Shown piece after piece: positions 1 through 11,318 of a DNA stretch of 64,000 bases. The translations under genes and the position numbers were made by a program. The stretch comes from Tabrizicola sp. TH137 (lineage in GTDB: Bacteria > Pseudomonadota > Alphaproteobacteria > Rhodobacterales > Rhodobacteraceae). Position 1 is the first letter of the stretch; each line of letters starts with the position of its first letter. The notes beneath the pieces are model-generated. The model was given only the letters and a program-made list of their open reading frames with translations. It had not been told where the DNA came from and ran no database searches. The stretch is from assembly GCF_002855575.1 (NCBI RefSeq), contig NZ_PKRQ01000002.1:868001-932000 (forward strand). Reading direction: 5' to 3'.

Positions 1-805
1 GCTCCGCGCAGGACCGGATCGCCGCCAGCGGATTGCGCAGCCCATGCGCCACCGCCGAGGCCATCTCGCCCACCACGGCCAGCCGCTCCGTCTCGACGAT
101 CCGCGCCTCCTGCCGCTGAAGGACGCGGCTGGCATAGGCCACCACCACCGCCAGCCCGCCAAACAGCGCGCAGCCCGCCGCAAGCGCGCCCAGCCAGGCC
201 AGCTTGCGGATCTCGGTCATCGAGGCAAGCAGGCTTTCCGGTGCCTTGTAAACCTCCACCGCCCCCACGATCTCGCCGGTGATCTCGCGGCGGATCGGGA
301 TGTAATATTCGATGAACCGGTCCACCCCATCGGGGAAGCCGACATGTTCATCCTTGTCGCCCCGGCTGACAACGCTCAGTTCCGGCTCCAGCCGGCCATC
401 CATAGCGTGTTCCAGTTCCTCGTTGTCCTCGAACCTCTTGCCCACCATCTGCGGATCGCTCGACCACAGGATGTGCCCATCAAAGGCATAGACATTGGCC
501 CGGAACACATCCGGCAGCCGCGACACATGCGACACGAATTCCTGCACGTCGGGCGGCGTGGGCGCATCGGTGATGCCCATGAAATAGGGCGCCGCCTGCT
601 CGACATGGACGATGGAATTCAGGAACTCCGTCGAAACCATCGCATCGCGCATCATCATCTGATGAATAATGTAGCGCGACAACGCCGTCGAAAGGATCGC
701 GGCAGTCGAAAAGATGGCCAGAAAGCTGATGACGAAAAAGATCGTCAGCATCCGCAGATGATGCGGTGAATCGCGCAGGCTGGTCGCGCCGATCAGAAGG
801 CTCAT
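1..805 (-). CDS. Sensor histidine kinase, C-terminus cut by window edge
   Basis: Reading the minus strand from the ATG at 805 gives about 268 residues before the edge. Membrane segments lie near residues 19-41 and 212-235, with a periplasmic sensor domain of about 170 residues between them. After the second helix comes a short signalling helix and the H-box, with motif VAHGLRNPLAAIR; the phosphoacceptor His codon is complementary to 42-44. The ATPase domain must lie to the left of the window. It is divergent from a gene that begins with a receiver domain, so the two probably form a phosphorelay pair (inference). The periplasmic ligand is unknown. Confidence 0.88.
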   Translation of the reverse strand, partial: MSLLIGATSLRDSPHHLRMLTIFFVISFLAIFSTAAILSTALSRYIIHQMMMRDAMVSTEFLNSIVHVEQAAPYFMGITDAPTPPDVQEFVSHVSRLPDVFRANVYAFDGHILWSSDPQMVGKRFEDNEELEHAMDGRLEPELSVVSRGDKDEHVGFPDGVDRFIEYYIPIRREITGEIVGAVEVYKAPESLLASMTEIRKLAWLGALAAGCALFGGLAVVVAYASRVLQRQEARIVETERLAVVGEMASAVAHGLRNPLAAIRSCAE

Positions 806-889
806 GCCATCCTCCGCCGGTTTCGGTCTCTGCACAGCAAACCACATCTCGCGCGCGGCGCAAATCATGCTGCGCAGGCCCGGGGGGCC

Positions 890-936
890 GTTCTGGGGCA
901 TTTCCCCCAAATTGCCCCCGCCATTTGCCCCAGAAC
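890..936. promoter_or_regulatory. 11-bp inverted repeat between the kinase and receiver-glycosyltransferase genes
   Basis: GTTCTGGGGCA at 890-900 and TGCCCCAGAAC at 926-936 are exact reverse complements, separated by 25 bp. The repeat lies in the only non-coding gap between the divergent kinase and glycan genes, where both promoters must be. It could be an operator or a transcript hairpin. Neither flanking protein shows a DNA-binding domain, so any binding regulator is encoded elsewhere. Confidence 0.45.
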
Positions 937-1012
937 CGCCCCGCGGCCGGGGCGAAAGGAGGCACCCCCTCCCCTAGGATGGCGGACAGGACCATTGCCA
1001 ATGGGGGCCAGA

Positions 1013-2611
1013 ATGCCGGATATCCTTCTGATCGAAGACGAGCCGATCATCGCCCGCAATATCGGGATCGCGCTGGGGCGTGCCGGGCATCGCGTCACCC
1101 ATGCCGCCTCCGCGACAGAGGCGCGCCGGGTTCTGGCAGCGGGTCTGGCCTCGGGGACGCATCCCGATCTGGTGATCGCCGACATCTCGCTGGGCGACGG
1201 CGATGGGATCGAGGTGCTCTCGGCCCATGGCCCGCAGCTCAGGGACTGCCCCGTCATCATCATGAGCGGCCAGGACAGCACCGCCAACCGGCTGCGCGCG
1301 GAAGGGATTTCCGTCGCGGCCTTCCTTGCCAAGCCCTTCGCAATGGCGCGGCTCTGCGAACTCGCGGCGGCCCTTCTGGCCGAAAGCCTGCCCGAACAGC
1401 AGCGCAAGCCCGGCCCGTCGGTGATGATGTATTCGCATGATACGATCGGCCTCGGCCATATGCGCCGCAACAGCGCCATCGCCGAGGAACTGGTCGCCCG
1501 CGTGCCGGGCCTGTCCGTCCTGATGCTGGTCGGTTGCCCGGCGGGTATGATGTTCGCCCCCCGTCCGGGGATCGACTACATCAAGCTGCCCTCTCTGGCC
1601 AAGCTTGGCCGCGACCGCTGGCAATCGGGCAGCCTGCGGATCGACGCGGAAACGGCCCGCGCGCTGCGGGCGGGCATCCTCGAACGGGTGGCCGAAACCT
1701 TCAAGCCCGATGTCTTCCTCGTCGATCACGAACCGACCGGGGTCTGGAACGAACTCGTCGCCCCCCTGCGCCGCCTGCGCGAAAGCTGCGGCACGCGCAC
1801 GATCCTTGGCCTGCGCGACATTCTCGATGATCCCGACCGGACCTGTGGCCGCTGGGCCGAAACGGGCACCGACAAGGTGATATCCACCCTCTATGACGAT
1901 GTCCTGATCTACGGGAATGCCGATTTCTACCCCTCCAGCCGCGCCTATGGGCTGGATCGTCTCCGCCCGGATGGGGTGCAGTATTGCGGTGCCGTGACCA
2001 CGGTCCGCGCCCGCCGGTCGGCGCGGCGCGAAAAGGGTCCGCGCCGGGTGCTGGTCTCGGGCGGCGGCGGGCGGGATGCCTTCCTCCTGCTGGCCACCGC
2101 ACTCGAGGCGCAGGCCCTGCTGCCCCGCCGCCAGCGCCCCGACCTGCAACTGATCGCCGGCCCGCTGATGGATACGGAATTGCGCGAAAGGCTGCATCTG
2201 CGGGCCGCCGAACTGGACGTGACCTTCCATGACCAGGTCAGCGACATGCCCGCCCGCCTTGCAGCAAGCGATCTCTTCGTGACGATGGGCGGCTACAACT
2301 CGGTGACCGAGGCGCTGGCCATCGGCGTTCCCGCCCTTGTGGTGCCGCGCGTCGGCCCCTCCAGCGAACAGCGCATCCGGGCGGATCGCCTGCGCCATCT
2401 GGGCCTGGCCGAGGTCATCGAACGGCCGGACCTGACGCCGCAGTCCCTGGCCCCACACCTCTCCGGCGCGGCGACGCGCCAACCTGTCGTTTCGGCCCGC
2501 CTGCCGCTCGATTTCGATGGTGCGGCACGGGCGGCCTCTCATATCGCGGCCTGCCTCGGCGTCTTGACCGCCGACCGGCCCGCGCCGCTCCGGCAGGTGT
2601 CCCATGGCTGA
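1013..2611 (+). CDS. Receiver domain fused to GT-B glycosyltransferase (MurG-like)
   Basis: The 532-aa protein starts at the ATG at 1013, where receiver domains normally begin; a TTG at 995 and an ATG at 1001 are in frame but less likely. Residues 1-120 are a CheY-like receiver with acidic pocket E8/D9, phosphoacceptor D57, S85 and K107 all present. Residues 136-510 are a GT28/MurG-like GT-B enzyme: an N-terminal motif SHDTIGLGHMRRN near 141 and a C-terminal donor-site motif GGYNSVTEALAIGVPALVVP. No DNA-binding output domain is present, so phosphorylation would act directly on a sugar transferase. It overlaps the next gene by 8 bp. Fold assignment is from motifs; donor and acceptor are unknown. 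Confidence 0.87.
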   Translation: MPDILLIEDEPIIARNIGIALGRAGHRVTHAASATEARRVLAAGLASGTHPDLVIADISLGDGDGIEVLSAHGPQLRDCPVIIMSGQDSTANRLRAEGISVAAFLAKPFAMARLCELAAALLAESLPEQQRKPGPSVMMYSHDTIGLGHMRRNSAIAEELVARVPGLSVLMLVGCPAGMMFAPRPGIDYIKLPSLAKLGRDRWQSGSLRIDAETARALRAGILERVAETFKPDVFLVDHEPTGVWNELVAPLRRLRESCGTRTILGLRDILDDPDRTCGRWAETGTDKVISTLYDDVLIYGNADFYPSSRAYGLDRLRPDGVQYCGAVTTVRARRSARREKGPRRVLVSGGGGRDAFLLLATALEAQALLPRRQRPDLQLIAGPLMDTELRERLHLRAAELDVTFHDQVSDMPARLAASDLFVTMGGYNSVTEALAIGVPALVVPRVGPSSEQRIRADRLRHLGLAEVIERPDLTPQSLAPHLSGAATRQPVVSARLPLDFDGAARAASHIAACLGVLTADRPAPLRQVSHG

Positions 2612-3818
2612 TACTCCCCTGCGCATCGGTTATGTCGTGAAGCGCTTTCCCCGCTTCTCGGAAACCTTCATCCTGAACGAGGTTCTGGCGCTGGAAGCGC
2701 AAGGGATTTCGGTCGAGGTCTTCTCGCTCCTCGACCCGCCCGACGAACCCCGCCATGCCCGCCTTGCCGACCTGCGGGCGCCGGTCACGCGGCTGGCCGA
2801 CACGCCCGCGCCGCCTGTCCTTCCCGCAACCGGCGATGCGGCGCTCTTTGCCGGCACGCCCCCCCTCGCGGCAGCGCGCCTGATGGCCAAGGCCGGACGG
2901 GTGGCCGAGGCGGCACAGGCGCGCGGCTTGCACCACCTTCATGCCCATTTCGCCTCGGATGCGGCCAGCGTGGCCCTTCTGGCGGGGCGCGCCGCGGGGC
3001 TGACCTTCTCCATGACGGCCCATGCCCGCGACATCTATCACGATTACATCGACCCCCAGACCGATGCCGCCAAGCGCCGGGCCAAGCTCATGGCGGCGGA
3101 TTTCACCGTCACCGTCTCCGACTTCAACCTGCGCCACATGCGCACGCTCTGCCCCGAAGCCGCGCCGCGCATCCACCGGCTCTACAACGGCATCGACCTC
3201 GCGGCCTTCCACCCCGCCCCGGTGCAGCGGGCAGTGCCCGGCCGCATCCTCGCCATCGGCCGGCTGGTCGAGAAGAAGGGCTTCGCCGACCTGATCGCGG
3301 CCTGCGCCCTGCTTCAGGCGCAAGGCAGGGCCTTCGACTGCCGGATCATCGGCGACGGCCCCCTGCGCGCCCCCCTCACCGATCAGATCGCCGCGCTCGG
3401 CCTGCAAGGCAAGGTGCAGCTTCTCGGCCCGATGCCGCAGGAACATCTCGCCGCCGCGCTGGAGGAAGCCAGCCTCGTCACCCTCCCCTGCATCATCACC
3501 CCCGACGGCGACCGCGACGGATTGCCCACCGTCCTGCTCGAAGCCATGGCCAAGGCCCTGCCCGTCGTCACCACCACCGTCACCGGCGGACCCGAGATCG
3601 TGGCCGACGGCATCACCGGCCTTCTCGTCCCGCCCGGCTCCCCCGCCGCCCTCGCCACCGCCCTCGGCAGCCTGATCGACGATCCCGCCCGGGCGCAGCG
3701 GATGGGCCGCCTCGGCCGCCAGCGCGCCGAAAGCCTCTTCGACCTGCGGGCAAGCAGCGCCACCCTCGCCGGCCTCTTCGCCAAGGCGGCACGCCACCCC
3801 CTGAAAGGAGCCGCCTGA
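2604..3818 (+). CDS. GT4-family glycosyltransferase
   Basis: This 404-aa GT-B enzyme resembles exopolysaccharide and capsule glycosyltransferases. The N-terminal domain begins with IGYVVKRFPRFSETFILNE. A histidine-rich segment HLHAHFASDAA is near residue 111, and SMTAHARDIY follows near 138. The C-terminal Rossmann domain has GRLVEKKGF and the E-x7-E type donor motif DGLPTVLLEAM near residue 305. No signal peptide or transmembrane helix is seen, so it is probably cytosolic or peripheral. It overlaps the gene before it, and its stop overlaps the next start by one base, implying translational coupling. Sugar specificity cannot be read from the sequence. Confidence 0.9.
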   Translation: MADTPLRIGYVVKRFPRFSETFILNEVLALEAQGISVEVFSLLDPPDEPRHARLADLRAPVTRLADTPAPPVLPATGDAALFAGTPPLAAARLMAKAGRVAEAAQARGLHHLHAHFASDAASVALLAGRAAGLTFSMTAHARDIYHDYIDPQTDAAKRRAKLMAADFTVTVSDFNLRHMRTLCPEAAPRIHRLYNGIDLAAFHPAPVQRAVPGRILAIGRLVEKKGFADLIAACALLQAQGRAFDCRIIGDGPLRAPLTDQIAALGLQGKVQLLGPMPQEHLAAALEEASLVTLPCIITPDGDRDGLPTVLLEAMAKALPVVTTTVTGGPEIVADGITGLLVPPGSPAALATALGSLIDDPARAQRMGRLGRQRAESLFDLRASSATLAGLFAKAARHPLKGAA

Positions 3819-4984
3819 TGCGCATCGCCTATCTCTGCCCCGATGGCGGCATCCCGGTCTTCGGCGACAAGGGCGGTTCGGTCCATGTCCGCGCCATGAT
3901 CCGCGCCTTCCGCGCCGAAGGCCATGAGGTGGAGGTGTTCTGCGCCGAAACCGGCGATGGCCCCGCCGATTTCGCCGTCACCGCCCTCGGACCCGACTTC
4001 CCCCCCGCCGAGGGCCGCGAGGCGAAGGAGCGCCGCCTCCTCGCCCTTGCCGACGCGCTTCAGGCACGGCTGGAACAGCAGCACCGCCACCGCCCCTTCG
4101 ATCTGATCTACGAACGCTATGGCCTCTGGTCCGCCGCCGGGGTGCGCGCCGGTCGCCGCCTCGGCATCCCCGCCGTGATCGAAGTCAACGCCCCCCTGGT
4201 AGAAGAACAGGCCGCCTTCCGCAAATTCGTCCTCCAGGACGCCGCCCGCGCCATCGAGGCCGAGGTCTTCTCCACCGCTGATGCGCTGGCCGTCGTCTCG
4301 CGCGAATTGGCGGTCTATGTCGCCTCGCGCGGCGCAGGGCCCGAGGCCATCCATGTCATCGGCAATGCAGTCGATTGCGCGGCCTTCCATCCCGCAATCC
4401 CGGCGGCCGAGGTTCCGGGCCTGCCCGATACCGCTTTCACCATCGGCTTCACCGGCTCGCTCAAGGCCTGGCACGGGACCGACCTGCTTGTCGAGGCGCT
4501 GGCCCGGCTGCGCCCCGCCATCGACGCCCGCCTCCTGATCGTGGGCGACGGGCCGGAACGCGGCGCCCTGCTGGATCACGCGGCGCGGCACGGGCTTTCC
4601 CATGCCGTCACCATCACGGGCTGGGTGCCGCATCACCGCCTGCCGGGCCTCATCGCCCGGATGGATGCCGCCGTTGCCCCCTATCCGGCCATGGCGAACC
4701 ATTACTTCTCCCCCTTGAAGCTCTTCGAATATCTCGCCATGGGCCGCGCCATCGTGGCCAGCCGGATCGGCCAGACCGCCGACCTGCTCGGTCCCGATGG
4801 CAGCGGCCTTCTCGTGCCGCCCGGCGATGCCGTGGCCCTCGCCGATGCCCTGCACCGGATCGCGACCGATGCGCCGCTTGCCGCAAGGCTGCGCCAACGC
4901 GCCGCGATGCAGGCCCGGCACCATGACTGGCGGGCCAATGCCCGCCGCATCGTCGATCTCATCCCCAGGGCGAAGGCCGCATGA
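3818..4984 (+). CDS. GT4-family glycosyltransferase
   Basis: This is a 388-aa GT-B enzyme. The N-terminus has the glycine-rich GGIPVFGDKGGSVHVR loop seen in GT4 enzymes. The C-terminal half contains IGFTGSLKAWHG, the nucleotide-sugar region LIVGDGPERGAL and the acidic motif LKLFEYLAMGRAIVAS near residue 299. It resembles the preceding gene only at fold level, so it is a separate transferase and not a recent duplicate. The stop overlaps the ABC exporter start by 4 bp (ATGA). It probably adds a second sugar to the same product (inference). Confidence 0.9.
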   Translation: MRIAYLCPDGGIPVFGDKGGSVHVRAMIRAFRAEGHEVEVFCAETGDGPADFAVTALGPDFPPAEGREAKERRLLALADALQARLEQQHRHRPFDLIYERYGLWSAAGVRAGRRLGIPAVIEVNAPLVEEQAAFRKFVLQDAARAIEAEVFSTADALAVVSRELAVYVASRGAGPEAIHVIGNAVDCAAFHPAIPAAEVPGLPDTAFTIGFTGSLKAWHGTDLLVEALARLRPAIDARLLIVGDGPERGALLDHAARHGLSHAVTITGWVPHHRLPGLIARMDAAVAPYPAMANHYFSPLKLFEYLAMGRAIVASRIGQTADLLGPDGSGLLVPPGDAVALADALHRIATDAPLAARLRQRAAMQARHHDWRANARRIVDLIPRAKAA

Positions 4985-6750
4985 CACATCGCCGCCGCAT
5001 CCATCCCACGACCCTCTGGCATCTGCTGCGCCGCCTCGCGCCCCATGCGCGCCCCTATCGCGGCAAGCTTGCCCTCGGCTTTGCCGCCATGACCCTCGCC
5101 GCCCTGGCCGAGGTGATCCGCCCCTGGCCGGTGAAGGTGGTGTTCGATGGCATCCTCATCCCGCAGGCCGATCCCGATCCGGTGATGGCGACGGTGCTTT
5201 CCTGGGTCGGCACGGGCGACCGGCTGCTCTGGACCTGCTGCCTTGCGATCCTCTCAATCGCAGTCCTCGGCGGGGCGGCGGCCTATGTGCAGTCAACCCT
5301 CGTTTCCGGCGTGGGCCAAAGGGTCGTGGCCGATATCCGGCTGGAACTCTACCGCCATGTCCAGCGCCTGTCGCATTCCTTCCATGACAGCGTCTCCACC
5401 GCCGACATCGTCTCGCGCCTGACGGGCGACGTCCGGATGATGCGCGACCTGCTGATCGAGGCCGGCGTCCTCTTTGCCGCCCGCAGCCTCGTCATGGCCG
5501 GAACCATAATCGTCATGGCATTGATGGACTGGCGCCTGACCCTCGCCGCCCTCGCCATCCTGCCCGCACTGGTCTTCCTGACCAACCGCTATGGCCGCCG
5601 CATCAAGGACGCCGCCCGCCATCAGCGCAAGGGCGAAGGCCGTATCGCCGTGGTGATGACCGAAGGCATTTCGGCGATATCGCTGGTCAAGGGCTTTGCC
5701 AACGAAGCCCATGAAGAGGCCCGCTTCTCCGAACAGAACCTCTCCTCGGCCGAAGCCGGCGTCACATCAACCCGCGTCTCGGCCGAGATGGACAGGCTCG
5801 TTCAGGTTGTTCTGGCTGCCGGAACCTGCCTTGTCATGTGGTATGGCGTGACGCGGGTCCAGGCTGGGGCCATCAGCCCCGGCGACCTGCTGGTCTTCAC
5901 CGCCTATCTCGCCACCCTGCACAAGCCGATCCGCCGGATGAGCAGCATGTCCGCCCGCGTCGCCAAGGCCACCGCCAGCGGCGAACGCCTCCTCGAAGTG
6001 CTCGACCTGCGCCCGGAAATCGCCGATCGCCCCGGCGCACGCAAGGCCCCCTATCTCCGCCGCTGGATCAGTTTCATCGACGTGACCTTTGCCTATCCCG
6101 GCGGCAATCCGGTCCTCCAGAATGCCACGCTCACCCTGCGCGCGGGCGAAACCGTCGCGCTGGTCGGGCAGAGCGGGATGGGCAAATCCTCCGTCGCCAA
6201 ACTCCTGATGCGCTTCTATGAACCGCAATCGGGCCGCATCCTGATGGATGGCACCGATATCCGCGACCTGACGCTCGACTCGCTTCGGGAACAGATTTCC
6301 GTCGTCCTTCAGGATTCGCCCCTCTTCGCCGCCACGATCCGCGACAACATCGCCTATGGCCGCCTGGACGCGACCGATGACGACATCGCCGCCGCGGCCC
6401 GCGCGGCCGGGGCGGACCGCTTCATCCGCCGCATGCCCAAGGGCTATGACACCGTGCTGGGTGAGAGGGGCGAAACCCTTTCGGGGGGGCAGCGCCAGCG
6501 CATCGCCATCGCCCGCGCCCTGCTGCGCGACGCGCCGATCCTGATCCTCGACGAACCGCTGACCGGCCTCGACCGCACCACGGCCGAAGAACTGGTCCAG
6601 ACCCTCAAGATGATCAGCCGCGACCGGACGACCCTGCTGATCGCCCATGACGACCTCACGCTCAGCATGGCTGACCGCATCGTCCGCCTGACCGATCGCC
6701 GCTTTGCCGAAGACGGCTTTCCCCCCCTGATCCTGGAGCGCAAGGCATGA
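4981..6750 (+). CDS. ABC exporter, fused membrane and ATPase domains (MsbA-like)
   Basis: This 589-aa half-transporter would act as a homodimer in the inner membrane. Six hydrophobic segments fill residues 30-310. The nucleotide-binding domain has Walker A GQSGMGKS at 396-403, Q-loop near 444, signature LSGGQ at 500-504 and Walker B ILILDEP at 520-526, so it should be catalytically competent. Family members flip lipid-linked sugars, lipid A or peptides. Lying between glycosyltransferases, it most likely exports the lipid-linked product of this cluster (inference). It overlaps both neighbours by 4 bp. Confidence 0.92.
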   Translation: MTHRRRIHPTTLWHLLRRLAPHARPYRGKLALGFAAMTLAALAEVIRPWPVKVVFDGILIPQADPDPVMATVLSWVGTGDRLLWTCCLAILSIAVLGGAAAYVQSTLVSGVGQRVVADIRLELYRHVQRLSHSFHDSVSTADIVSRLTGDVRMMRDLLIEAGVLFAARSLVMAGTIIVMALMDWRLTLAALAILPALVFLTNRYGRRIKDAARHQRKGEGRIAVVMTEGISAISLVKGFANEAHEEARFSEQNLSSAEAGVTSTRVSAEMDRLVQVVLAAGTCLVMWYGVTRVQAGAISPGDLLVFTAYLATLHKPIRRMSSMSARVAKATASGERLLEVLDLRPEIADRPGARKAPYLRRWISFIDVTFAYPGGNPVLQNATLTLRAGETVALVGQSGMGKSSVAKLLMRFYEPQSGRILMDGTDIRDLTLDSLREQISVVLQDSPLFAATIRDNIAYGRLDATDDDIAAAARAAGADRFIRRMPKGYDTVLGERGETLSGGQRQRIAIARALLRDAPILILDEPLTGLDRTTAEELVQTLKMISRDRTTLLIAHDDLTLSMADRIVRLTDRRFAEDGFPPLILERKA

Positions 6751-7928
6751 CCCAGCATATGCCCGACCCGATACCGACCCTGCCCCCGGCGGATCTGATC
6801 CACGCCCTGATCCGGGGCGACCTGCCCTCGCTGGGCCGGTTGCATCTGGCACGGATGCATTTCCCCTCGGGCCGCGCGCCCAATGCCGCGATCAGTCTCG
6901 ACGGCCAGGACTGGATCGCCGAATGGACCGGCCCGGAAGGTGCCGAGCGCGCGCATGCCGAGGCCGACCGTCTGCACCGCGCCGGTCAGGTGGCAGAGCT
7001 TCGCTTCGACCCCGCCTCGGGCCTGCTGCTGCGGCGGCCCGGATCGGATGCGAAACTGCCCGGACTGCGGCTTCTGGCAGACCCCGGCCTTGCTGCCGAC
7101 ACACTGGCTGGGCTCGGCCTCGCGGGCCCGTTCCGGATCGACCTCGTCGCGCATCGCCTGGGCCGTCGCGCCGTGCTGCGCATCCGGCATTCCAAAGGTC
7201 TGGCCTATGCCCGGCTGCGCTCTCCCACCGCCAGCGCTGGCCGGGCGGCTGTGGCGCATCATCGGTCGCTCTGGCAGGCGCTGCCCGCCGGCGCTGCCCT
7301 GCGCCTGCCCGCCCCCCTTGGCGAAGACCGCGCGCTTGGCCTTGCGCTCTATGCCGCGCTTCCCGGCCATCCCCTGCACCTCCGCGGCCTGCGCGGCTTT
7401 GCCGGGATCGAGGCCACGGCGCGGGCGCTTTCCGATCTCCAGCAGATCGCGACGGATGCCCCGCTCTGGACCGCCGAAGACGAGATCGCCCTGCTTGGCC
7501 GCTGGCTGGATCGGATCGCCGCGATCTTTCCCGAACTGTGGCCACACTTGTCTGCACAGTTTGCGGCACAGAAGGCTGACTTCCGCAAACTGCCCCCCAT
7601 GGCCCCCGTCACCTGCCACCGCGACCTTCACGAAGGGCAGATCCTGCACTTCCGCGGGCGGGCGGGCATACTGGATTTCGACACGCTCTCGCGCGGCGAT
7701 CCGGCACAGGACCTGGGCAATCTGCAAGCCCATCTCGACCTTGCCGGGTTGCGGCAAGGTCGCAGCCTCGCCGCCTATGCCACTGCGATGGAACGGAATT
7801 TTCCGCATCTCCCACTGTCCCGCATCGCCGTCTGGCGGCGCGCCGCACGGCTGCGGCTGGCGATGATCTGGGCCTTCAGCGCCGAACCGCGCGCCCATCT
7901 TCTGGCGCTGGCAGGAGATGTGGCATGA
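6747..7928 (+). CDS. Phosphotransferase, APH/choline-kinase fold (1 of 3)
   Basis: This 393-aa protein has the catalytic loop CHRDLHEGQ near residue 290 and the metal-binding DFD shortly after (ILDFDTL), which are hallmarks of aminoglycoside/choline/homoserine kinase-like enzymes. The usual loop Asn (HxDxxxxN) is Gln here. The family phosphorylates small hydroxylated molecules with ATP or GTP. In an operon of glycosyltransferases and an exporter, a sugar or lipid-headgroup substrate is more likely than an antibiotic (inference). It is coupled by 4-bp overlaps to both neighbours. Confidence 0.82.
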   Translation: MTQHMPDPIPTLPPADLIHALIRGDLPSLGRLHLARMHFPSGRAPNAAISLDGQDWIAEWTGPEGAERAHAEADRLHRAGQVAELRFDPASGLLLRRPGSDAKLPGLRLLADPGLAADTLAGLGLAGPFRIDLVAHRLGRRAVLRIRHSKGLAYARLRSPTASAGRAAVAHHRSLWQALPAGAALRLPAPLGEDRALGLALYAALPGHPLHLRGLRGFAGIEATARALSDLQQIATDAPLWTAEDEIALLGRWLDRIAAIFPELWPHLSAQFAAQKADFRKLPPMAPVTCHRDLHEGQILHFRGRAGILDFDTLSRGDPAQDLGNLQAHLDLAGLRQGRSLAAYATAMERNFPHLPLSRIAVWRRAARLRLAMIWAFSAEPRAHLLALAGDVA

Positions 7929-9085
7929 GAACCGTCCTTCCCTCCGATCCCGCCCTTCCCGGCTTGCACCAGCTCTCCGAAACCGACCTCGCCCGCATCA
8001 CCGGCACCCCCCTCACCGAAATCCTCCGCCTCCGCCACCACCCCGGCCTCCGCGCCGCCCTGCACGTGGCCTGGGGTACCGGAAAGGGGCGTCAGGAGGG
8101 CGTTATCTGGTTCCTTCGCCCGGCAAAGCTGTCACATCTTGTGGAAACCCGCCCTCATCTCCGTTTCGACAAGGCGACTGCGACTGCCTTCGAAACCTTC
8201 CCGATGGATCACCGCCTGCCGGAACTCGCAGCCTTTTTCCGCAACAGCGCGGCACTCGCCCCCCGCCTTATCGGTGGGTCTGCCGCGTCCCGACCGCAGC
8301 TTGTGCGCTATCGCCCCGGCCTTTCAGCCACCTTCCGCTGGTTGTCCGACGCGGGCCTGTCGCATTTCGTCAAGGTCGAGAGGAAGGCCGACACGCAGAA
8401 CCACGCAGACCTCCAGAACGACATCAAGTGCCAGACCGAAGGCAGCCTGCTTGCCCTCCCCGCCGTCACCGGCTGCCTCGCCGAGCGCGGTGTCATCGCC
8501 TATGCCGCCGCGCAGGGGGAAAGTCTGGAAGAGGTGCTGGCAAGGGGAGACGAGGCAGAGACGATCCGCGCCGTCACCCTCATGCAAGAAGCGTTACAGG
8601 TTCTCTGGTCCTGCGCGGCGCCAACCCTGCGGGCGATGACGCTCGACGACTACCTTCGCCCTGCCCGCCGCGCCGCCGACCTGATTGCCGAGGCGGATGC
8701 GCAGGCCGGATCGGCGGCCCGCGCCATCATTGCCGCGGCAGCAGTCACACCACCGCACTTGCGGCAGGTGCCGATCCACGCCGACCTGAAGCCGGATCAT
8801 GTCTTCCTTGAACCAAGCCGCGTCACGTTGATCGACACGGAAAGCATGAAATGCGGCGATCCGGACTTCGACCTCGCGCTACTGGAAGCGAGGCTCGACC
8901 TCGGCCCCCGGACCGGGGCTTTCCCAGCCCGCGCGGTACAAGCGGCCCGCGCCGCCATGCGCCCGGCGGCAGGACCGAATTTCGAGTGGTTCCATAGGCT
9001 TGCCCGCATCCACGCGGCCAAGTTCCTTGCCCAGCACCGGGGTTCATGCGCGGCGACCGATCTGCGTGAGGTTCTTTCGGCATGA
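7925..9085 (+). CDS. Phosphotransferase, APH/choline-kinase fold (2 of 3)
   Basis: A 386-aa member of the same fold as the gene before it. The catalytic loop is IHADLKPDH near residue 284 and the metal site is LIDTES, so the second Asp is kept while the loop Asn is His. The N-terminal lobe contains a kinase-like FVKVERKAD segment that could supply the ATP-binding Lys. Sequence similarity to its two neighbours is limited to the kinase motifs, suggesting old divergence or different substrates. It overlaps both neighbours by 4 bp. The substrate is unknown. Confidence 0.78.
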   Translation: MRTVLPSDPALPGLHQLSETDLARITGTPLTEILRLRHHPGLRAALHVAWGTGKGRQEGVIWFLRPAKLSHLVETRPHLRFDKATATAFETFPMDHRLPELAAFFRNSAALAPRLIGGSAASRPQLVRYRPGLSATFRWLSDAGLSHFVKVERKADTQNHADLQNDIKCQTEGSLLALPAVTGCLAERGVIAYAAAQGESLEEVLARGDEAETIRAVTLMQEALQVLWSCAAPTLRAMTLDDYLRPARRAADLIAEADAQAGSAARAIIAAAAVTPPHLRQVPIHADLKPDHVFLEPSRVTLIDTESMKCGDPDFDLALLEARLDLGPRTGAFPARAVQAARAAMRPAAGPNFEWFHRLARIHAAKFLAQHRGSCAATDLREVLSA

Positions 9086-10194
9086 CCCTGCTTACACCCT
9101 TTCCCCTTGTGAAGCGCTATGCCTTGCTGGGCCATTGCGAAGGTGCTGCGCTGCTGGCCGAAGCGGATGCACGCATCGCGTCCGACCCGGCCGCACAGCG
9201 GCTTTTGGCCCGACCTGGGGCAAGAGTGACGTCCGATCTACAGACGCGGCTGCGAGAGGGTCGTCTGAGGATCAAGTCCGTTCTGTGGACGGTGCAGGTT
9301 CCGCAGCGCCCATCACCCGGGCTTGCCGCGCGAAGCCTGTCCGTCGCACCCGATGCGGCGCAGTGGTTCAATCTTGAGGACGATCCGGCCCTGCCCTTCG
9401 GTCAGATGCTTCGCCAACCCGAAACGCATGTCCTGCGCTATGTGCCAGGCCGCAGGGCCACGCTGCGCCTGCTTCGCGACGGCCTGCCCATCATCCAAAA
9501 GATCAAGAAAAAGGAACGGCTTGCCGAAGCACGTTCACGTCATCTTCTGGTCGAGGCAGCGGTCGAGAACGCATCCCTTCCGATCCCCGGGATGCTGATG
9601 CCAGGCACGGATTACTGCCTTCGCTGCTGTCCCGGAGTCCCGATGGAGGCCGCCACGACAACGGCCGACCGCCTTGCCGAACTGGGCCGGATCGTCGCGC
9701 GCCTCCATGGCTGCGCGATGCCCGGTCTGCCGCCTGCCGACCTGCCCGAGGATCCCCTGCCCTGGCTGGCGACGGCGCTGCCCGGCCTTGCAGCCCGGTG
9801 GCAACACCTCGGCGAAGCCCTTGCGGGCGAGGCGCATCGCCCTGATGCCCTCTGCCATGGTGACCTATGCCTTTCCCAAGTCCTGCTTCATCAGGACGGG
9901 ACGGCGGATCATCTGACGCTTCTCGACTTCGATCGCGCCGGAGCGGGCAGCGCCGCCGCCGATCTGGCGACCCTGCTTTGCAGTCTGCCCGACCTGGGAC
10001 CTGACCGCCACTTCGCTGCGGAAGCCGCTGTTCTTGAGGGATATTCCTCCATCAGGGCAGTTCCCTCTGGACTGGGCGCAGCATGCGCCCGGGCGGAAAT
10101 GGACCTGCTCCGCCACCACATCCGCAAGGGAACGGCGCCCACGCGGCAGATCATGGCCGGGCTTTCGCGGGCCGAAGCGGCCCTGGTCGCATGA
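9082..10194 (+). CDS. Phosphotransferase, APH/choline-kinase fold (3 of 3)
   Basis: This 370-aa protein has the catalytic loop CHGDLCLSQ near residue 257 and the metal motif LLDFDRAG about 17 residues later. As in the first paralogue, Gln replaces the usual loop Asn. IIQKIKKKERLAEA near residue 138 probably holds the nucleotide-binding Lys. The stop overlaps the following glycosyltransferase start by 4 bp. Three consecutive kinase-fold genes of this type in one operon are unusual. They may phosphorylate successive intermediates, or one may act as a scaffold. Confidence 0.8.
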   Translation: MTLLTPFPLVKRYALLGHCEGAALLAEADARIASDPAAQRLLARPGARVTSDLQTRLREGRLRIKSVLWTVQVPQRPSPGLAARSLSVAPDAAQWFNLEDDPALPFGQMLRQPETHVLRYVPGRRATLRLLRDGLPIIQKIKKKERLAEARSRHLLVEAAVENASLPIPGMLMPGTDYCLRCCPGVPMEAATTTADRLAELGRIVARLHGCAMPGLPPADLPEDPLPWLATALPGLAARWQHLGEALAGEAHRPDALCHGDLCLSQVLLHQDGTADHLTLLDFDRAGAGSAAADLATLLCSLPDLGPDRHFAAEAAVLEGYSSIRAVPSGLGAACARAEMDLLRHHIRKGTAPTRQIMAGLSRAEAALVA

Positions 10195-11318
10195 CGTCCC
10201 GGGTGGCCCATATCCTGAACTCCCTCGGCACTGGCGGGGTTCCCGAGGCGGTGCTGGGCCTTGTCCGGCATGGCGACACCAAGGCCCATGCACCGCTCGT
10301 CTACTGCCTGAAACCTGCGATGGAACCGGAGGCAGCCCAGGACCTGCGCCGACGGTTCGAGGCGGCAGGGGCGGAGGTGCATGTCGCGCCGGGTGCCGAC
10401 AAGATCGACGGCGTGGCGCATCTGGCCGAATGGTTGGCGGGGCAGCGCATCGACTTGCTCCACAGCCATTCCTACCGGCCGAACCTCTATGGTCGCATGG
10501 CCGGTTTTCTTATCCGGTCCAATGGCTTGCGGATCGTTTCGCACTATCACAACCAGTATGACGACAAATGGCTTCCGGGGTCTTCGGCGCTGATGCTGGA
10601 ACGGCGGATGGCGGCGGGGACGGATGCGATGGTGGCGGTCTCTGGCATGGTGCAGAAGCATGTGGCCGCGCTGCTTGATGTGCCGCGCAGCCGGATCGAG
10701 GTGATCCCGAACGGGATCGCGGAAGACAAGACCGCGCCGCGGGAGCGCGAAGAGGCGCGGCGGGCGCTGGGGCTGGACCCATCGGCCGAGGTGATCGGCT
10801 GTGTCGGGCGCATTTGCCGACAGAAGGGGCAGGACCTCTTTGTCGCAGCCGCGCTGGCCTTGCTGGCGCAGGGGCATGGCGGAACCTTCGCGCTGATCGG
10901 GGCGGAGGAGGATGCCGTGATGGCCGCCCGCCTGCGCGCCTCCATCGCTGCGGCGGGGATGGCGGATCGCGTGATTTTTCTGGGCCATGTCAAGGACATG
11001 GCAAACGTCTATGCGGCGCTGGACCTGCTGGTCGCGCCGTCCCGGTGGGAGGGATTTGGCCTGATGCTGGTAGAGGCGATGGCCGCGGGCTGTCCGGTGA
11101 TTGCCAGCGAGGCGGGGGCGATCCCGGAAGTGGCGGGTGGCGCGGCGCGGCTGGTGGGGGTGGAGGCGGTCGAGGAACTGGCAGAGGCGATAGGGTCGCT
11201 GGATGGTGCGGCGCGGCGGAACATGGCGGCGGTGGGGCGTCTGCGGGCGGCGGAGTTTGGCTGGCCGCGGGCGGCGGCGCAGGTGGGGGAACTGTATGAT
11301 CGGGTGCTAAGGTGTTGA
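10191..11318 (+). CDS. GT4-family glycosyltransferase
   Basis: The longest open frame starts at 10083, but the ATG at 10191 overlaps the upstream stop by 4 bp and gives a normal GT4 N-terminus (VAHILNSLGTGGVPEAVLGL). The 375-aa protein has VIPNGIAEDK near residue 172, VGRICRQKGQDLF near 206 and the E-x7-E motif EGFGLMLVEAM near 286. It is the fourth glycosyltransferase of the cluster, counting the receiver fusion. From within this gene onward the third codon position shifts from C-rich to G-rich compared with the genes upstream. Confidence 0.88.
   Translation: MTSRVAHILNSLGTGGVPEAVLGLVRHGDTKAHAPLVYCLKPAMEPEAAQDLRRRFEAAGAEVHVAPGADKIDGVAHLAEWLAGQRIDLLHSHSYRPNLYGRMAGFLIRSNGLRIVSHYHNQYDDKWLPGSSALMLERRMAAGTDAMVAVSGMVQKHVAALLDVPRSRIEVIPNGIAEDKTAPREREEARRALGLDPSAEVIGCVGRICRQKGQDLFVAAALALLAQGHGGTFALIGAEEDAVMAARLRASIAAAGMADRVIFLGHVKDMANVYAALDLLVAPSRWEGFGLMLVEAMAAGCPVIASEAGAIPEVAGGAARLVGVEAVEELAEAIGSLDGAARRNMAAVGRLRAAEFGWPRAAAQVGELYDRVLRC

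Follow-up and report, generated by a model that had tools for sequence, protein, structure and literature searches.

We analysed a window of 64,000 nucleotides from the alphaproteobacterium Tabrizicola sp. TH137 (G000:C22:868001-932000, G000 being the genome that holds the window). Near its start, a receiver domain and a glycosyltransferase (GT) of the GT-B type are encoded in a single reading frame of 532 residues, open from its ATG to its stop codon and divergent from a histidine kinase gene (Table 1). The genes downstream of the fusion overlap or abut, and comprise two GT4 genes, an MsbA-like ABC exporter that scores below the NCBIfam equivalog cut-offs, APH-fold genes, and a closing GT4-like gene for which we chose an internal start within the ORF 10083-11318. 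Three different APH-fold genes thus stand in a row inside this glycan operon.

Table 1. Coordinates of the genes and candidate elements around the receiver-GT fusion, in positions of the window.
Feature	Position	Strand	Basis or remark
Histidine kinase, first 268 codons	2..805	-	two hydrophobic stretches and H-box; gene continues past the window
Palindrome TGGGGCATTTCCCCCA, one mismatch to TGGGGCANNTGCCCCA, candidate operator	894..909		intergenic comparison
Right half-site of the palindrome, 23 bp on	917-932		
CCTAGGAT box, possible promoter element	973..980	+	common to the three closest relatives (alignment of three intergenic regions)
Receiver-GT fusion ORF	1013-2611	+	532 residues; ATG at 1013, stop at 2611
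Receiver domain of the fusion, residues 1-125	1013..1387	+	E8/D9, D57, S85, F104, K107; Pfam
GT-B glycosyltransferase part of the fusion	1409..2611	+	Pfam Glyco_tran_28_C
GT4 glycosyltransferase, second operon gene	2604..3818	+	Pfam
GT4 glycosyltransferase, third operon gene	3818..4984	+	Pfam
MsbA-like ABC exporter	4981..6750	+	Pfam and NCBIfam
Three APH-fold phosphotransferase-like genes	6747..10194 (6747-7928, 7925-9085, 9082-10194)	+	PF01636 above cut-off in each
GT4-like glycosyltransferase, last of the overlapping run	10191..11318	+	family named from sequence

Both parts of the fusion score above their Pfam cut-offs: Response_reg on residues 4-117 (59.2 bits, cut-off 30.2) and Glyco_tran_28_C on residues 347-483 (43.6 bits, cut-off 22). 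The latter match places the C-terminal domain of the GT in PF04101 (GT28), above the curated cut-off. A preliminary description of this DNA, made from the letters alone, had proposed a receiver with its full phosphorylation set joined to an intact GT-B enzyme. This description is accurate: E8, D9, D57, S85 and K107 are all found at these positions, and the GT is apparently intact, with a GLGH loop at residues 146-149, G-Y-N and E at 427-433, and E-Q at 452-453. We take the roles of these motifs to be those that they have in GT28 enzymes. Their residues are invariant among the members of the group that reach them (17-19 out of 20). The fusion therefore combines a complete phosphorylation site and an enzyme domain in the same polypeptide, which are two criteria of enzymatic-output response regulators. 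The GT had also been called MurG-like, and this is right for the fold family and wrong for MurG itself. The two share the GT-B fold family and the C-terminal donor domain, but the fusion GT obtains 35.9 bits with the NCBIfam MurG model, far from the equivalog cut-off of 250.25, and lies in an operon with an exporter. This score rules out a MurG identity, and the protein is a GT28-like GT-B enzyme other than MurG.

The fusion is present at 21 loci: those of G000 and G002, and 19 from named genomes, several of which are the same as loci known under a genome handle (e.g., L061 is G010 and L071 is G371). Seventeen of them have an intact frame across the GT part, and L071, L075, L076 and L078 an interrupted one. 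A sequencing error joining two genes near position 1400, which the preliminary description had raised against its own proposal, is excluded because receiver and GT are joined at all these loci. The junction itself is variable. The AlphaFold model of the fusion, made from six sequences (mean pLDDT 76.2, pTM 0.67), has its interdomain residues 126-132 below 50 pLDDT, and the linker (residues 123-134) has zero invariant residues across the 18 receivers compared. With an unconserved linker and low model confidence, there is no pointer to a rigid coupling between receiver and GT. Two of the interrupted loci are peculiar. L071, from Tropicibacter alexandrii, has a stop at receiver codon 8 and its following GT4 gene is split between two frames, which may reflect either decay or a fault in the assembly. 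In L078 (2511-6289, from a MAG), similarity to the GT stops after the first 53 residues, and we found no downstream genes in the remaining 3.2 kb.

The fusion has a narrow distribution, and its receiver-less relatives are much commoner. It occurs in 4 of the 19 genomes of the genus sample. In the family sample (394 genomes), 96 genomes match the fusion query and six of these also match the receiver (G000, G002, G064, G114, G258 and G371), with stops interrupting the frame in G064 and G371; the best match in the other 90 begins at residue 100 or later. In the class sample, 129 out of 385 genomes match and, judged by alignment start, two alignments run from residue 1 (G000 and G741) and the rest from residue 78 or later. 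The phylum sample has 31 matches in 398 genomes, with the receiver in G000 only, and in the family of G741 the fusion is found in 3 out of 23 genomes. We scanned the named genomes with peptide patterns taken from the GT part: 27 stretches matched a pattern and 19 encode a relative. The alignments of all 19 begin inside the receiver, even if the patterns came from the GT part only. Their hosts, according to the titles of the records, are Rhodobacter and other Rhodobacterales, Pelagibius, Denitrobaculum, an uncultured member of the Kiloniellaceae, two unplaced alphaproteobacterial MAGs, and one MAG of the Rhizobiaceae group.

In a tree of 96 GT rows (midpoint root, some branches being long), a single branch with high support (100/99) sets the 21 fused rows apart from the receiver-less relatives. 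These rows differ from the 21 loci: L080, L127 and L128 are second copies of L073, L068 and L074, and L075, L076 and L078 were too short to be included. The preliminary description had considered that homologues mostly lacking the receiver would speak against its proposal. This is what we observe for the relatives at 31-39% identity and the opposite of what we observe in the closer group (46% or more), where the receiver is present. With regard to the domain-architecture search that it recommended, our sequence comparisons gave the 21 loci above, with D57 in 20 of the 20 readable members and the kinase pair beside the fusion in 20 out of 21. Two other candidates were rejected. G362 has a long frame with no receiver inside, and an unrelated OmpR-type pair upstream (named from sequence). 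Carriage of the fusion by plasmids was discarded since none of the 29 plasmid records matching the fusion query covers over 80% of it; among the matches listed, none reaches the receiver.

The divergent gene had been described as a membrane sensor kinase, and we agree: it encodes a histidine kinase with two hydrophobic stretches, judged by eye, and the full protein matches HisKA and HATPase_c (Pfam), the ATPase domain lying outside the window. On the full contig, also outside the window, the kinase gene overlaps by 8 bases the gene of a response regulator of 411 aa that carries REC, AAA and Fis-HTH domains (Pfam). At 20 of the 21 loci (18 of the 19 named ones, plus G000 and G002), the kinase and regulator genes neighbour the fusion in divergent orientation, and the regulator follows the kinase at all 20, three of which are cut by the contig end. 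The regulator has its REC, AAA and Fis HTH domains in common with NtrC/NtrX-type regulators, but lacks the GAFTGA loop by which NtrC-type sigma-54 activators are recognised: the pattern G[AS]FT[GN]A is found in none of 19 copies, of which 17 count because those of L067 and L075 stop short of the loop. A sigma-54-dependent mode of action is therefore unlikely. Kinase orthologues (E up to 1e-50) are present in 6 of the 394 family genomes, precisely the six bearing the receiver-GT fusion, and in none of the 90 genomes of the sample that have only the receiver-less GT. The link between fusion and kinase suggested in the preliminary description is thus apparent in evolution as this co-occurrence, part of which is accounted for by the fact that the genes travel together in a single cluster.

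The cluster has a recognisable order where contigs extend far enough: GT28b, APH, the divergent regulator and kinase, receiver-GT, GT4, GT4, exporter, and APH genes. Here, GT28b is a second GT28-like gene, located beyond the regulator in opposite orientation together with a short APH-like gene (L009 8401-10196, left of the window). It has no Pfam match and a weak match to the MurG model, and the GT28b/APH pair accompanies the fusion cluster. Variations of this order occur. A GT4 gene follows the fusion at 16 named loci out of 19; it is missing from L078, and in L075 and L076 the contig ends too early. An APH gene stands ahead of the exporter in L073 and L074, and the closing GT4-like gene recurs in G010, G002, G114, L061, L065, L069 and L077, some of which are the same loci. 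The kinase pair and the fusion are separated by ~1.2 kb in L069 and L076 and by ~0.6 kb in L073 and L074. The genes found between them are a nucleotidyltransferase-family gene, GalU-like by sequence, in L065, and an APH-like gene and an alginate-export-family protein in L068. The nucleotidyltransferase and the alginate-export-family protein are in keeping with a UDP-sugar as donor and with export of the glycan. Polyamine-type ABC importer genes (named from sequence) adjoin the cluster in L009 (4016-8306), and two such genes with 92-96% identity occupy the same place in G010 and G002.

The comparison of intergenic regions revealed a palindrome with the consensus TGGGGCA-N2-TGCCCCA. It is found with at most three mismatches in 14 positions, and within 200 bp upstream of the fusion, at all 20 kinase-bearing loci (L066 and L067 being near-identical MAGs). 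In 17 of them it is 86-120 bp before the fusion start. In L064, L072 and L078 the best site is farther off and has three mismatches, and 1.7-2.7% of shuffled regions fit equally (300 letter shuffles each). In L079, which alone is without the kinase pair, the best site upstream of the fusion has five mismatches, a value reached by 24% of the shuffles. The consensus was derived from the regions upstream of the fusion, and the second operon (GT28b) therefore serves as an independent check: a palindrome with three mismatches or fewer precedes GT28b in 10 of the 16 kinase-bearing loci tested and is absent in six. In nine of the 10 it is 93-111 bp before the start used. L079 has no palindrome upstream of GT28b at this threshold, and in G002, which is outside the 16, a separate comparison found the site. 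At the stand-alone GT loci, the same threshold gives 55 matches in 374,445 bases. Genome-wide, with one mismatch or less, there are three sites in G000 (including the one described here) versus 2 for the reversed control, and 16 versus 7 over six genomes. The count in G000 is hardly above that of the control, and these numbers do not demonstrate a larger regulon. The two other copies in G000 were judged to be there by chance: one is located where a cytochrome c'-like ORF begins, next to an ImuB-like gene, and the other falls within a dehydrogenase-like reading frame (all named from sequence). Overall, gene order and the conserved palindrome would fit an orthodox two-component system, with a kinase beside a DNA-binding regulator, if the palindrome is the operator of this regulator.

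The conservation of the fusion receiver bears on whether it can be phosphorylated. We could read it in 20 of the 21 loci, leaving out L071 with its early stop. E8, D57, S/T85 and F104 are kept in all 20, and D9 and K107 in 19. None of the 19 readable members with the kinase has lost D9, D57, S/T85 or K107. The remaining member is L079 (10001-11581), the sole locus without the kinase pair, where the receiver has lost D9 and K107 and all the GT residues that we checked are kept. This contrast is a single case, taken from a MAG. The genome of L079 has 29 kinase matches, all with 22-32% identity and none spanning the whole kinase, the best-scoring one (29%) covering only the transmitter. A search for relatives of its fusion in its family (199 genomes, E up to 1e-60) returned only L079 itself. 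The locus may be regarded as a natural control, as it lacks at once the kinase pair, the palindrome and a part of the receiver site but still has the GT.

We lean, with some reserve, towards interpreting the locus as a forked two-component system in control of a glycan destined for export, in which one kinase would act on a DNA-binding receiver and on a GT-bound receiver. From these comparisons, we infer regulator binding to the palindrome, phosphorylation of both receivers by this kinase, an effect on GT activity together with its sign, and the nature of the glycan. The membrane sensor kinase would pass phosphate to the two receivers. The adjacent Fis-type regulator would then bind the palindrome and activate the fusion operon; in many species it would also activate the second GT28-like/APH operon. 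This transcriptional arm is suggested by gene order and by the conserved palindrome. Phosphorylation of D57 would set the activity of the fused GT, or the way in which it assembles with the GTs that follow and with the exporter. Judging from residue conservation, co-occurrence with the kinase and the contrast with L079, direct phosphorylation of the operon's first GT is probably a means of control. Transcription would set the amount of the enzyme and the receiver its activity, such that one signal may control both and synthesis could stop quickly once the signal ends. A more specific version, in which regulator and receiver form a coherent feed-forward pair (the regulator of the kinase turning on the glycan operon, and direct phosphorylation of the GT receiver gating the activity of the pathway), is plausible, and we put it forward tentatively.

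An alternative that we find rather unlikely is that the fused receiver feeds back on signalling, as a phosphate sink or competitor that tunes the DNA-binding regulator and perhaps reports the amount of enzyme, with no control of the GT. One would expect from it the same co-occurrence and residue conservation, and the same likeness of the two receivers in helix 1 (see below), and the unconserved linker is in line with it. Yet it leaves unexplained why all the loci of the group have the receiver joined to this particular GT. The pattern of conservation among 18 receivers (L079 and L071 set aside) also argues against it: conservation peaks in the loop that follows K107 and around the phosphorylation site, strand 4 and helix 4 come next, and the linker is the least conserved. 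Residues N92, R93, R95, E97 and K107-A110 are invariant. The conservation of helix 4 and of the loop following K107 suggests a contact with another protein surface.

We attribute a comparably low probability to an ordinary transcriptional two-component system in which the receiver of the GT would have a structural or dimerisation role and respond to a different kinase, or to no kinase at all. The adjacent regulator and the conserved palindrome would suffice for a standard system, and the receivers themselves give mixed indications. There are 52 receivers in the genome of the window, of which 51 were aligned, and among these A14-R15-I17 in helix 1 (A-R-x-I) is confined to the receivers of the fusion and of the adjacent regulator. 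Over 22 contact-region positions, the fusion is the best match of the adjacent regulator in the genome. Seen from the fusion, among 50 others, the adjacent regulator is 6th over these positions and 4th by whole-receiver identity, and is therefore not its closest relative. With 1st rank from one side versus 6th or 4th from the other, the ranking of closest receivers gives no clear answer as a test of a shared kinase, and we abandoned it as such. The signature in helix 1 is mostly ARNI in the fusion and ARSI in the regulator. A is replaced by G in both receivers in L073 and L074, and drift affects a single partner elsewhere: G in the regulator of L068, Q for R in the fusion of L064 and L078, K for R in the regulator of L071, and M for I in that of L066, L067 and L077. 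What weakens the idea of a structural receiver is that a purely structural domain would have no need of D9, D57, S/T85 and K107, which are kept in the 19 readable kinase-bearing members, two of them being lost where the kinase is missing. These data are suggestive of the neighbouring kinase serving the fusion receiver. Finally, the proposal of the preliminary description that the output is sugar transfer rather than transcription, with the kinase signalling solely to an apparently intact and divergently encoded receiver-GT, is very improbable, because the kinase gene overlaps at its 3' end with that of the regulator, a regulator follows the kinase at all 20 kinase-bearing loci, and the shared promoter region ahead of the operon contains a conserved palindrome.

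Post-translational control of bacterial glycan synthesis is known mostly via c-di-GMP and tyrosine kinases. If the feed-forward pair exists, bacteria would have a two-component system in which a post-translational valve is built into a GT-B enzyme. The presence in named strains, such as those of Silicimonas algicola and Pelagibius litoralis, of a receiver-GT-B fusion with its candidate kinase, a sister regulator and a candidate operator offers a compact test of the direct control of a GT by phosphorylation. Receiver domains attached to metabolic enzymes are already known, and the relevant sections of PMC5847659 regard such fusions as placing enzymes under environmental control. They include receivers fused to GT2, with a BcsA-like domain (PF13641; MTH_548), in three genera of Methanobacteriaceae. 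As in our case, a receiver is joined to a glycosyltransferase within a narrow range of hosts. Those fusions involve an archaeal GT2 that is cellulose-synthase-like (PMC5847659), whereas the one described here involves a GT-B enzyme, GT28-like and alphaproteobacterial, adjoined by a kinase, a second regulator and a candidate operator. The census of output domains in PMC1183210, in the portion considered here, leaves out other enzymatic ones. We found no receiver-GT28 or receiver-GT-B fusion in the literature searched, which had most subscription papers outside its reach. The novelty is thus the receiver on a GT28-like GT-B enzyme in alphaproteobacteria, the receiver-GT2 fusion of Methanobacteriaceae having been described before.

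Stand-alone GT28-like proteins are found in alphaproteobacterial glycan clusters that resemble the one of the fusion: a homologous GT (31-39% identity) is followed by two GT genes, with an ABC exporter-type gene nearby. They differ from the fusion by the lack of a receiver and, in the 90 family genomes mentioned above, of a kinase orthologue. Some are on plasmids, in similar clusters, in Sulfitobacter, Shinella and Azospirillum (L130, L131 and L132, respectively). These three clusters encode two further GTs, an ABC exporter-type protein, an ABC importer with its substrate-binding protein, and a polysaccharide deacetylase.
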